Source: Deltaproteobacteria bacterium
GTDB taxonomy: Bacteria; Desulfobacterota; Binatia; DP-6
Length of the DNA: 36,600 bases
Reading direction: 5' to 3'
Assembly (NCBI GenBank): GCA_005879585.1
Contig: VBKG01000341.1
Span: forward strand, 1-36,600
Each line of letters starts with the position of its first letter. Within the stretch, counting starts at the first letter, position 1. The notes beneath the pieces are model-generated. The model saw only the letters and a list, made by a program, of their open reading frames with translations, had not been told where the DNA came from and did not search any database. A program made the position numbers and the translations under genes. Positions 8,761 through 29,580 of the stretch are shown piece after piece.

Positions 8761-8837
8761 GGGCCCATAGCTCAGGCGGTTAGAGCTGCCGGCTCATAAC
8801 CGGTCGGTCGTGCGTTCGAGTCGCACTGGGCCCACCA
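8761..8837 (+). tRNA. tRNA with CAU anticodon (Ile2 or elongator Met)
   Basis: A complete 77-base cloverleaf with encoded CCA. The acceptor stem GGGCCCA pairs with TGGGCCC. The D-stem is GCTC/GAGC, the anticodon stem GCCGG/CCGGT has loop CTCATAA (anticodon CAT at 8795-8797), and the T-stem GTGCG/CGCAC has loop TTCGAGT. The fully paired position 1-72 excludes initiator tRNA. The variable region CGGTC recalls tRNA-Ile2, whose C34 is modified to lysidine, but elongator tRNA-Met cannot be excluded by eye. Confidence 0.93.
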
Positions 8838-9633: not shown

Positions 9634-10025
9634 CGCCGGAGGAGGTCGAGCAGCCGCCCGTCGCACCGCGGCGGGAGGAAAGTCCGGACTCCATAGGGCA
9701 GGGTGGCCGCTAACGGCGGCCTCGAGCAATCGGGGGAAAGTGCCACAGAAAAGAGACCGCCCCGGACCGAAGGCCCGGAGCAAGGGTGAAAAGGCGAGGT
9801 AAGAGCTCGCCAGATCCGTTCGAGAGAACGGATGCTCGGCAAACCCCACCCGGAGCAAGACCGAGTAGGAGGGAGATCCGGCCACCTCGGCCGGGTGCGG
9901 GTGGTCCGCCCGTTCCCTCGGGTCGGTCGCTCGATCCCTCGGGTAACCGGGGGACCAGACGAATGGCTGCTGCCCCCGCTTCCTGAGCGGGGGAACAGAA
10001 TCCGGCTTACAGACCTCCTCCGGCG
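9634..10025 (+). ncRNA. rnpB: RNase P RNA, bacterial type A
   Basis: Catalytic RNA that matures tRNA 5' ends. The P4 5' strand and its surroundings are unmistakable ('GAGGAAAGTCCGGACTCCAT', then AGGGCAGGGTG), and its partner 'ACAGAATCCGGCTTACAGA' lies near the 3' end. P1 is a perfect 14-bp helix: 9634-9647 pairs with 10012-10025. The conserved 'AAGGGTGAAAAGG', 'GGTAAGAGCTC' and 'CCCACCCGGAGCAAG' blocks are in order, and P18 has a GTAA tetraloop. The length of about 392 nt is typical of type A. The strong P1 helix followed by TTTT (10028-10031) may serve as transcript end. The start and end are set from the P1 pairing. Confidence 0.95.
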
Positions 10026-26411: not shown

Positions 26412-27590
26412 ATGATGGAGTTCGTCGATGCCGGCGAGGGGGCGCGGATCAAGGTGGTGGGAGTCGGCGGGGGTGGCGGCAACGCGGTGAACACGATGAT
26501 CTCGGCCGGATTGCCGGGCGTCGACTTCATCGCGGCCAACACCGACGCGCAGGCACTCCGCGCCAACCTTTCTCCCGTGAAGTTGCAGCTCGGCGAGCAG
26601 GCCACCCGCGGCCTCGGGGCCGGCGGCAACCCCGCGGTCGGCAAGCACGCCGCGGAGGAGGACGTCGAGCGGCTCCGCCAGCATCTCGCCGGAGCCGACA
26701 TGATCTTCATCACGGCCGGCATGGGCGGCGGGACGGGCACCGGGGCCGCGCCGGTCATCGCCCGGGTGGCGAAGGAGCTCGGCTCGCTCACCGTCGGGGT
26801 GGTGACCAAGCCCTTCATCTTCGAGGGCAAGCGCCGCATGAAGCAGGCCGACGACGGCATGCGGGAGCTCAAGGCGAACGTCGACACGCTGATCGCCATT
26901 CCCAATCAGCGCCTGCTCTCGGTCTCCGGCACCAAGTCCACGTTCGTCGAGAGCTTCAAGAAGGCTGATGACGTGCTCCTCCAGGCCGTGCGCGGCATCT
27001 CGGACCTGATAACGGTTCACGGACTCATCAACCTCGACTTCGCCGACGTGCGCACGATCATGTCCGAGATGGGCATGGCGATGATGGGCGCGGCGATCTC
27101 GCAGGGCGAGAATCGCGCCGTCGAGGCGGCCCAGAAGGCGATCTCGAGCCCGCTTCTCGAGGACGTGTCGATCCAGGGCGCGCGGGGCGTGCTCATCAAC
27201 ATCACCGGCGGCCCGGACCTCACGCTGCACGAGGTCAACGAAGCAGCGACGCTCATCCAGGAGGAGGCCGACGACGACGCCAACATCATCTTCGGTGCCG
27301 TCATCGACGAGTCGATGGGCGACGAGATGCGCATCACCGTGATTGCAACCGGCTTCGGCGAGCGCATCGAGCGGAGCACGGCGCGCGGCTCGGAGGCGCG
27401 GGGTGTGCATGCCGCCGGGCGGCCGGTTCGGCGCCACGGTCTCGTGAGCGACGACGAGCTCGACGTGCCCACGTGGCAGCGTCGCCGGAAGGACGGGCCC
27501 GCGGCGGACAGCGCGCGCGCCGCGGCGCCGCCGAGTGACGAGGGGGACGAGTTCGAAACGCCGACGTTCCTTCGTCGGGGCGCCGAGTAG
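26412..27590 (+). CDS. ftsZ: Cell division GTPase FtsZ
   Basis: A 392-residue tubulin homologue forming the Z ring. The N-terminal GTPase domain has '[18 protein letters not shown]' (13-30), '[11 protein letters not shown]', the tubulin signature '[20 protein letters not shown]' (104-123) and 'PNQRLL'. The T7 loop with catalytic aspartates is '[20 protein letters not shown]' (207-226). The C-terminal domain ends near 316. A linker of about 30 residues leads to two copies of the conserved tail peptide, '[11 protein letters not shown]' (348-358) and '[11 protein letters not shown]' (379-389). ATG 26412 has AGGAGG 7 bases upstream, the best ribosome-binding site in the cluster and consistent with the need for high FtsZ synthesis. 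Confidence 0.97.
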
Positions 27591-27610
27591 AGCGGGTTCC
27601 GGGCGTCGGT

Positions 27611-27743
27611 TCGCGGGAGCGGGGACGCCGGCGCGCCTCGCGGTCCTCGCCGCACGCACGACTCGTATAAGTAGCGTCCCCCCGAAGCTGCGCGCTCGTG
27701 CGGCGGCTGCGGGCTCGGCTCGCCGGCGTCCCCGCTCCCGCGA
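27611..27743. repeat. 133-nt inverted-repeat element downstream of ftsZ
   Basis: A perfect 23-bp inverted repeat: 27611-27633 is the reverse complement of 27721-27743. Inside it a second perfect 9-bp inverted repeat pairs 27648-27656 (CGCCGCACG) with 27697-27705. A 40-nt apical part contains a TATAAG. The whole can fold as one long interrupted hairpin. No T-run follows on the plus strand and no clear target-site duplication flanks it. It could be a structured RNA, a transcript end stabiliser or a MITE/REP-like repeat. The remaining bases between ftsZ and the next gene (27591-27840) show no gene. Confidence 0.8.
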
Positions 27744-27840
27744 TGCGCGGCGCGGGCGCACCCTACTCGACGTCGCGGCCCCCCAGCTTTTCCCAGAAAT
27801 GAGGTTTCTCGTCGGCTTGAGGCCGTCTTGGGGCCGGGGT

Positions 27841-29580
27841 ATGCACCGTGAGTTGCCCCGGAACGTGCCACGAATGGACGAGCGCCGTCTCACGCGTTTG
27901 GCGGCGGAGCGGCGCCTCTTTGTGCCGGGGCCAAGCGGGGGCTTGTCGGTGTGCCTCGTGTACCCGAACACGTATCCGGTCGCGATGGCGAACCTCGGGT
28001 TCCAGGCGGTGTTCCGGATCTTGTCGGAGGATCCGCGGGTCGCTTGCGATCGGGCGTTTCTGCCGGACGGGGACGCGGCGGGATGGCCGCGGACGTTGCG
28101 GTCGTTCGAGCAGGAGCGGCCGGTGGGCGACTTCGACGTGGTGGCGTTCTCGATCTCGTTCGAGACGGACTACCTGAACGTGCTGCAGTGCCTTCGGCTC
28201 GCGGGTATTCCGTGGCGGAGCCGGCAGCGGGGGGCGCGGGCGCCGCTCGTCGTTGCGGGCGGGCCTGCCACGTTCCTCAATCCCGAGCCGCTCGCGGAGT
28301 TCGTCGATCTGTTCTTGATCGGCGAGGCGGAGGAGATGCTCGGGGAGTTCGTCGACCGCGTGCTCGCCAGGCCGCGTGGGCGCGAGGCCGTGCTCGAGCG
28401 GGCGGAGGAGGTGGCCGGGGCGTACCGGCCCGAGCGGCATCATCCGGTGTACGACGAGCGCGGCGACCTCGTGGGCGTTCGCTACGACGGGGCGGGCGAC
28501 CGCCGCGTCGTCCGCCGCTTCGTCGCCGATCTCGACCGGTTCGCGACCAACTCCGAGGTGCTCGCTCCCGAGGCGGTGTTCGGCGACATGTACCTGGTCG
28601 AGACGAGCCGCGGCTGCGAGTGGGGATGCCGGTTCTGCGCGGCGGGCTTCATGTACCGGCCGGTCCGCTACCGGAGCCTCCGGACGCTTCGCGACAGCGT
28701 CGCGCGGGGCCTCGAGGCGCGCAGCACGATCGGCCTCGTGGGAGCGGAGATGGCGAGCCTGCCCGGCGTGTCGGCGCTCTGTCAGGACATCGCCGCCGCG
28801 GGCGGCCGCCCCTCGCCGTCGTCGCTCAAGGCCGACGTGATCACGCCGGCGCTCGCCGCCGCCCTCGGCCGCGGCGGGAACCGGTCGGTCACCGTCGCGC
28901 CGGAGGCCGGCTCGGAGCGCATGCGCCGGGTGATCAACAAGAACCTGACCGAGCCCGAGATCCTGCGCGCGGCGGAATGGCTCGTCGGCGCGGGCGTCGA
29001 GAGTCTCAAGCTCTACTTCATGGTCGGGCTCCCCACCGAGACCGCGGCCGACGTCGCCGGCATCGTCGCGCTCACGGCTAGCGTGCGCGCGCGGCTCGCG
29101 GGCGCGCGCGTGGGCCGCGTCCTCGTGTCGATCAACCCCTTCGTCCCGAAGCCGTGGACGCCGTTCCAGTGGGATCCGATGGAGGCGATTCCGCCGCTCC
29201 GGGCGAAGCTCGCCGCGCTCGGGCGCGAGCTCGCCGCGCTCGGCGGCGTCGACGTGGAGATCGAGAGCCCGCGCGAGGCGTATCTCCAGACGCTGCTCTC
29301 CCGCGGCGACCGGCGCATCGCGCCGATCCTCGAGCTCCTCGCGGCCGAGCCCGACGCCTGGTGGACGACGCTCCGGCGGCTGCGCGGCGGACGCGGCGAG
29401 ACCGTCGATCCGGATCGCTTCGTCCATCGCGCCTATCCGCTCGACGCGGTGCTGCCGTGGGACTTCATCGACCACTCGGTCGATAAGCGGTACCTCGTTG
29501 CCGAGCGGCGAAAGGCGGTTGCGGAGATCGAGACGCCGCCCTGCGACACCGCCACCTGCCATACCTGCGGCAGCTGCTGA
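27841..29580 (+). CDS. B12-binding-like radical SAM protein (TIGR03960-like)
   Basis: A protein of about 579 residues. The N-terminal region resembles a B12-binding fold ('VCLVYPNTYPVAMANLGFQA', 'DVVAFSISFETDYLNVLQCL', 'VVAGGPATFLNPEPLAEFVD'). The radical SAM domain has the cluster motif C259-x3-C263-x2-C266 ('SRGCEWGCRFCAAGFMYRP'), and later 'TVAPEAGSERMRRVINKNLT' and 'ESLKLYFMVGLPTE'. The C-terminus ends with four cysteines in C-x4-C-x2-C-x2-C. This family is common near dcw or ribosomal genes in deltaproteobacteria, with no proven reaction that I know of. The start is uncertain: ATG 27841 is given, but ATG 27799 and ATG 27874 are in frame and none has a good ribosome-binding site. Confidence 0.8.
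   Translation: MHRELPRNVPRMDERRLTRLAAERRLFVPGPSGGLSVCLVYPNTYPVAMANLGFQAVFRILSEDPRVACDRAFLPDGDAAGWPRTLRSFEQERPVGDFDVVAFSISFETDYLNVLQCLRLAGIPWRSRQRGARAPLVVAGGPATFLNPEPLAEFVDLFLIGEAEEMLGEFVDRVLARPRGREAVLERAEEVAGAYRPERHHPVYDERGDLVGVRYDGAGDRRVVRRFVADLDRFATNSEVLAPEAVFGDMYLVETSRGCEWGCRFCAAGFMYRPVRYRSLRTLRDSVARGLEARSTIGLVGAEMASLPGVSALCQDIAAAGGRPSPSSLKADVITPALAAALGRGGNRSVTVAPEAGSERMRRVINKNLTEPEILRAAEWLVGAGVESLKLYFMVGLPTETAADVAGIVALTASVRARLAGARVGRVLVSINPFVPKPWTPFQWDPMEAIPPLRAKLAALGRELAALGGVDVEIESPREAYLQTLLSRGDRRIAPILELLAAEPDAWWTTLRRLRGGRGETVDPDRFVHRAYPLDAVLPWDFIDHSVDKRYLVAERRKAVAEIETPPCDTATCHTCGSC

Follow-up and report, generated by a model that had tools for sequence, protein, structure and literature searches.

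A palindromic element behind ftsZ is one of many dispersed copies of a REP/MITE-like repeat in a small group of soil bacteria

The presence of a long, perfectly paired palindrome in the non-coding DNA just behind a cell division gene raises the question of what such an element is and how it came to be there. Here we analysed one such element in a window of 36,600 nucleotides (the whole stretch of DNA under study, from a deltaproteobacterial contig). The original prediction had offered three possible roles for it: a 3' stabiliser of the ftsZ mRNA, a structured small RNA, or a MITE/REP-like repeat. Using homology searches, covariance modelling and comparison of related genomes, we found that the ftsZ hairpin is one among about 27 dispersed copies, in its own genome, of an undescribed REP/MITE-like palindromic repeat.

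The palindromic element at the ftsZ locus

The nested inverted repeats are arranged as had been predicted, with all arms perfect (Table 1). The outer pair is the sole instance in the window of perfect arms of at least 14 bp with a spacer of up to 200 nt, and across simulated windows (order-1 and order-3 Markov models, 40 each) the longest arm did not exceed 16 bp. As RNA, the segment 27600-27755 folds with -115.7 kcal/mol, as compared to -89.5 +/- 4.6 kcal/mol for 200 shuffles (z = -5.7). The element had been delimited as a 133-nt palindrome, which is present, but pairing runs on to about 27603-27753 and the element is therefore about 150 nt long. The covariance model of the repeat family (R1, described below) matches 27606-27747 with an E-value of 1.2e-22; the ftsZ stop codon ends 15 nt before the start of this match and the 23-bp outer arm begins 20 nt 3' of it.

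Table 1. Features of the ftsZ locus and its palindromic element
Feature	Position in window	Strand	Basis
ftsZ, host gene upstream	26412..27590	+	Pfam Tubulin and FtsZ_C
Whole palindromic element	27603..27753	+	Predicted by folding
Outer arm, 5' side, 23 bp, perfect	27611..27633	+	
Inner core, the family's most conserved sequence (GGTCCTCG ... CGTCCCCCCG ... CTGCGG-TCG)	27638..27716	+	Alignments and motif counts
Inner stem, 5' side, 9 bp, perfect	27648..27656	+	
Apical segment, 40 nt: variable patch (TATAAG here), then conserved CGTCCCCCCG	27657..27696	+	
Inner stem, 3' side, 9 bp, perfect	27697..27705	+	
Outer arm, 3' side, 23 bp, perfect	27721..27743	+	
Radical SAM gene, downstream of element	27874..29580	+	Pfam Radical_SAM_N2 and Radical_SAM

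The TATAAG noted in the apical segment is found at 27666-27671, but it is not a conserved box, because it lies where the family varies most, with TAAAAG, TAGGCC, GGACTT and other sequences taking its place elsewhere. The reported absence of a T-run was borne out: a consensus scan of 27400-28100 gave no terminator-like site (a G+C-rich hairpin followed by a T-run), and no sigma-70-like promoter was found by consensus scan of the same interval. The absence of an ORF holds in so far as our home-made codon-usage gene finder places none inside the element, but longer mechanical ORFs do overlap it. The element had no Rfam match at gathering scores or at E <= 5. Elsewhere in the window, upstream of the dcw genes, lie a tRNA-Met(CAT) at 8761-8837 and a class A RNase P RNA at 9638-10025.

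A dispersed family and the places of its copies

BLAST of the element against its own genome (G000) returned many places with 74-86% identity. From 53 copies selected by BLAST, 44 were aligned (alignment A1), leaving out one with Ns and eight that were truncated or folded badly, and R1 was built from this alignment. R1 matched 27 places in G000 at E <= 0.01 and, at E <= 0.001 in the relatives, 29 in G002, 10 in G005, four each in G001 and G004, and two in G006; in G003, which belongs to the same family, there was no match at this threshold. All the genomes compared are contig sets, and G002 is very likely a MAG. G000, G001 and G002 are sister species of one genus and G005 belongs to another. 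The search of the genome and its relatives that had been proposed thus yielded many further copies, so that the mobile-repeat reading was kept. Among 118 evenly sampled genomes of the class, six match R1 at E <= 1e-5, all among the seven genomes of the same family, and the 111 sampled outside the family gave no match at this E-value under stricter filters. As covered by this sample and by four actinobacterial records, the repeat is confined to a small group of soil bacteria. These four records (three Actinomadura, one Amycolatopsis) contain the exact core pattern, which we attribute to chance because R1 gives no significant match there (best E 0.2). Weak BLAST matches were also folded at 20 places (11 in G000, four in G003, two each in G004 and G005, one in G001); these, and one more in G003, look like ordinary G+C-rich sequence lacking the architecture of the element, with the exception of L143 and L145, which R1 had already found. 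Other genomes of the class gave weak BLAST matches as well, but R1 has no match outside the family in the sample above. We found no description of the family in the open-licence literature that we searched; bacterial MITE-like palindromes are nevertheless a known kind of element, and the many dispersed, non-coding copies found here are below 200 bp (about 140-150 nt) and able to fold, as is expected of that kind.

With our gene finder, 73 of the 76 family matches were placed among genes; two partner copies (G002 C368:5748 and C312:9575) and a core-less hairpin (G002 C209) were left out of this context table. Sixty-five of the placed matches are longer than 110 nt, and 56 of these follow a gene in the sense orientation, with a median distance of 15.5 nt from the stop codon (51/56 within 30 nt). 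The 65 comprise 34 at convergent junctions, 22 in tandem sense, 6 in tandem antisense and 3 at divergent junctions. At the convergent junctions the sense stop is the nearer one in 28, the farther in 5 and tied in 1. The orientation bias is not absolute (9/65 copies are not in sense), and three of the six in tandem antisense are accompanied by an inverted partner, which in one case is partial. When orthologous sites are counted once, 44 of 53 copies are in sense; the sense stop is then nearer rather than farther at 25 versus 5 convergent junctions (p = 0.0003), and the tandem sense to antisense ratio, 14:6, is not significant (p = 0.12). Furthermore, within the same fetched loci, 31/61 junctions with a copy (> 100 nt) are convergent versus 31/304 without, and the tandem gap, excluding the element itself, has a median of 138 nt with a copy versus 10 nt without. 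Based on this convergent excess and on the wide tandem gaps, copies favour the ends of transcription units, mostly just 3' of the last gene. Selection against operon breakage can explain such a placement equally well as a use for the element at operon ends. As a separate observation, wherever two matches of the context table lie close together (seven pairs: L027, L033, L036, L061, L067, L084 and L087), the two copies face each other, with no pair facing away and none in tandem.

A Pfam scan of G000 proteins covered 19 upstream genes (of 21 listed) and the gene downstream of the window copy. The hosts include ftsZ, ribosomal protein L17, an antiporter-like subunit (presumably of nuoN type), ExbD/TolR, a flagellar rod/hook protein, HPPK, SAH hydrolase and a PEP-utilising enzyme that we take to be PtsP-like; wherever a host gene name goes beyond the Pfam title, it is our assumption. 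No transposase was seen among these 20 proteins adjoining copies, four of which have no Pfam match at all. We also considered a host regulon, which was rejected because the scanned G000 proteins are mixed in function.

Conserved core and paired changes in the arms

Within the genus, the centre is the best conserved part of the repeat, and the outer arms vary in sequence but still pair in the majority of copies. An intact CGGTCCTCG motif occurs in 22/26 copies of G000, 15/23 of G002, 9/10 of G005, 1/4 of G004, 0/3 of G001 and 0/1 of G006, and the apical CGTCCCCCCG is present in 25/26, 21/23, 0/10, 3/4, 2/3 and 0/1 of them, respectively, counts that have to be read in the light of R1, which found the copies and favours matches bearing CGGTCCTCG. 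The lack of CGTCCCCCCG in all ten copies of G005 implies that this other genus has its own apex.

The covariation analysis that had been suggested for the arms revealed that both the outer and the inner stems change in pairs. In A1, both-sided changes occur in 24 of 32 pairs, and in the inner helix both sides have changed in 8 of 13. Two-sided cells number 198, as compared to 51.6 +/- 5.3 in shuffled alignments and 12-35 with the partners slid, a pairing score that is raised by the selection of well-folding copies for A1. Covariation alone is no proof of a functional RNA, and we would urge this caution more generally. On RNAalifold consensus stems, with changes counted per copy and not per event, A1 without its outermost pair has 5 one-sided (wobble) versus 200 two-sided changes and a G-U share of 0.5%; including the outermost pair, the ratio is 18:200. 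RNase P, treated in the same way, has 35 one-sided versus 33 two-sided changes in the seven family genomes (G-U 7.3%) and 78 versus 202 in 14 members of the class (G-U 9.3%). The gap is much smaller when all pairs of the MFE fold of each copy are taken (G-U 5.4% in the element versus 7.8% in RNase P). At the ten sites shared by G000 and G002, 300 pairs show 31 two-sided changes, 1 wobble and 19 pairs broken in one copy, while 130 pairs of RNase P from the same two species show 2, 4 and 1.

The scarcity of wobble intermediates in the consensus stems suggests that arm pairing is kept at the DNA level. It favours correction of the arms through template switching, or a requirement that the DNA hairpins be perfect, over selection acting solely on the RNA. 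The perfect arms had originally been ascribed to selection or to recent origin; a third cause, not named there, is the correction of one arm by the other while the DNA is replicated, and the few wobble changes speak for it. For RNA hairpins, template switching is described as creating and maintaining stems and as making paired changes in one event, without single-step intermediates (PMC8794818); the same may hold for our repeat. That account deals mainly with stems of rRNAs and microRNAs, and its authors regard their evidence for maintenance as circumstantial (PMC8794818). Copying of whole elements between sites could be another source of paired differences; still, differences between copies must arise before they are copied, and they arose with few wobble pairs in the consensus stems. 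Paired changes with few wobble intermediates thus offer a testable sign of arm correction at the DNA level.

Turnover of copies and possible explanations

Ten sites are common to G000 and G002 and three to G002 and G001, and the L17 site is filled in all three genomes. For 10 G000 copies without a known partner, the orthologous places were located in G001 and/or G002 and read by eye. The site is empty at C327 in both sister genomes, at C107:36064, C8 and C19 in G001, and at C107:57653 in G002. Remnants are left at the C507 site (a 3' half, in G001), at the C285 site (a core-less hairpin, in G001) and at the C157 site (a 5' arm, in G002), and G001 has a different hairpin at the C438 and C157 sites and another copy on the opposite strand at the C118:71199 site. 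Filled and empty sites in relatives are what is seen with MITE-like elements. No clear target-site duplication was visible by eye at the ten sites read, the flanks of which are about 10-20% diverged. Since mobility is here deduced from presence and absence, deletion in the sister species explains some of the sites equally well. In the ten orthologous pairs of G000 and G002, the ortholog is the best match in only one (ranks 1-5 of 23). Orthologous copies thus do not simply group together, implying that their descent has been obscured, either by independent insertion or by copying from one copy to another. Of the seven family genomes, only G000 and G002 have the element behind ftsZ; in G005 and G006 ftsZ stands beside the same downstream gene without the element, and G001, G003 and G004 have other neighbours and no copy there. 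The place behind ftsZ in G001 (L171, native 902-1460) holds MazE/PrlF-like antitoxin and PemK/MazF-like toxin genes on the opposite strand. One gene has an adjoining copy in both G000 and G004, with the copy before the gene in one and behind it in the other.

Of the three roles first put forward, the MITE/REP-like repeat is backed by the many copies and by the filled, empty and decayed sites. We consider it probable that the element belongs to a non-autonomous family of repeats, restricted to this lineage, of the REP/ERIC/YPAL (bacterial MITE-like) type. Its copies would have spread through a mobiliser or by copying between copies, and would survive mainly where no operon is broken. Judging from place and stability, it is probable that each copy becomes part of the 3' UTR transcribed with its upstream gene; there, a hairpin of about -100 kcal/mol would block 3' exonucleases and might act as a U-tract-free pause or stop site. 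The complementarity of the arms would be maintained in the DNA, by hairpin-mediated template switching or through a need for perfect ssDNA hairpins. A bolder form, which we hold only tentatively and think rather unlikely, is a mobile palindrome whose placement or retention behind operon-end stops, in sense, depends on transcription, and which would work as a portable, U-tract-free 3'-end module with arms renewed by template switching, so that they drift fast yet stay perfectly paired.

A role specific to ftsZ, as a 3' stabiliser of its mRNA, does not agree with the lack of an ftsZ copy in five of the seven family genomes and with other copies standing behind unrelated genes. The more general alternative is a cis-acting module selected by the host, namely a portable hairpin for operon ends that would terminate or protect the mRNAs of housekeeping genes, have a dedicated protein bound to its conserved core and be kept because it is useful. 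Copies at transcription-unit ends behind ftsZ, L17, the antiporter-like subunit, ExbD/TolR, HPPK and others, their sense bias, the L17 site filled throughout the genus, and CGGTCCTCG intact in nine of ten copies of another genus (although R1 favours such matches) would all agree with it. We nonetheless judge it unlikely: for none of the 73 matches compared was a junction with the same pair of neighbours recognised in another genus, the hosts have no common theme, a U-tract is absent, several sites are empty in sister species, only two of seven ftsZ 3' ends carry the element, and CGGTCCTCG is intact in just one of four copies in G004 and in none in G001 (0/3) or G006 (0/1). Movement as a REP by a RAYT, an IS200-like Y1 transposase that would use the bulged hairpin as its ssDNA substrate, seems highly unlikely. 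Y1_Tnp matches do exist in G000 (6), G001 (7) and G002 (5), inverted pairs of copies occur as in REP doublets, and compensatory changes are known for REPINs, as described in PMC3116915; but G004 and G005, both 99% complete and both with copies, have no Y1_Tnp match, five of the six matches in G000 are on copy-free contigs, and the sixth (C107:21766) is 14 kb from the nearest copy, so that none of the G000 matches is flanked by copies. The element is also far longer than the 20-40 bp of REPs. Hardly credible at all is the idea that the element encodes a structured small RNA acting in trans: strong folding and covariation would fit, but the copies are dispersed, a sigma-70-like site and an Rfam match are both lacking, and wobble changes in the consensus stems are fewer than in RNase P of the same genomes.

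The proposed repeat family comes closest to ERIC and YPAL in its shape, and its placement is most like that of REPs. ERIC (IRU/RU-1, 127 bp) and YPAL (RU-2, 168 bp) are described as non-coding enterobacterial repeats that contain inverted repeats and are scattered between genes; transcripts of neighbouring genes include ERIC, with an orientation that matters for mRNA decay, and for YPAL both filled and empty sites are known and the sequence is not rich in A+T (PMC2229807). Our family resembles them, as there described, in size, non-coding nature, inverted repeats and dispersal, and has filled and empty sites like YPAL. It occurs in another lineage, the likeness being in the features described, and differs in its sense bias to transcription-unit ends, in having variable arms with a kept core, and in that no target-site duplication was recognised by eye. 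REPs lie mostly between convergent or co-directional ORFs, often less than 20 bp from 3' ends (PMC3733652), and ribosome stalling is reported for those within 15 nt of a stop codon (PMC12306157). Placement near the 3' ends of convergent or co-directional ORFs is what we found too, and further likenesses to REP, BIME and REPIN elements are inverted pairs and compensatory arm changes, the latter as described in PMC3116915. REPs are 20-40 bp palindromes with an unpaired GTAG or CGTC tag at one end. The repeat differs in its length of about 150 nt, in numbering no more than about 30 copies in a genome and in having no link to a RAYT across the family; a common tag was not noticed by eye at its aligned ends. 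attC sites have conserved end boxes and a variable centre, and the repeat shows the opposite pattern, with a conserved centre and variable ends.

This work adds an undescribed repeat family for an uncultured soil lineage. Two sister species with ten shared sites, and several empty ones, also make an unusually clean setting in which to ask why palindromic repeats gather 3' of stop codons.

As a minor observation, hairpins that have only the outer arms of the family and no core occur at L100:2973-3067 (G002 C209) and at about 1355-1420 of L131 (G001 C98). These are probably internal deletions, and possibly an arm-only form of the repeat.
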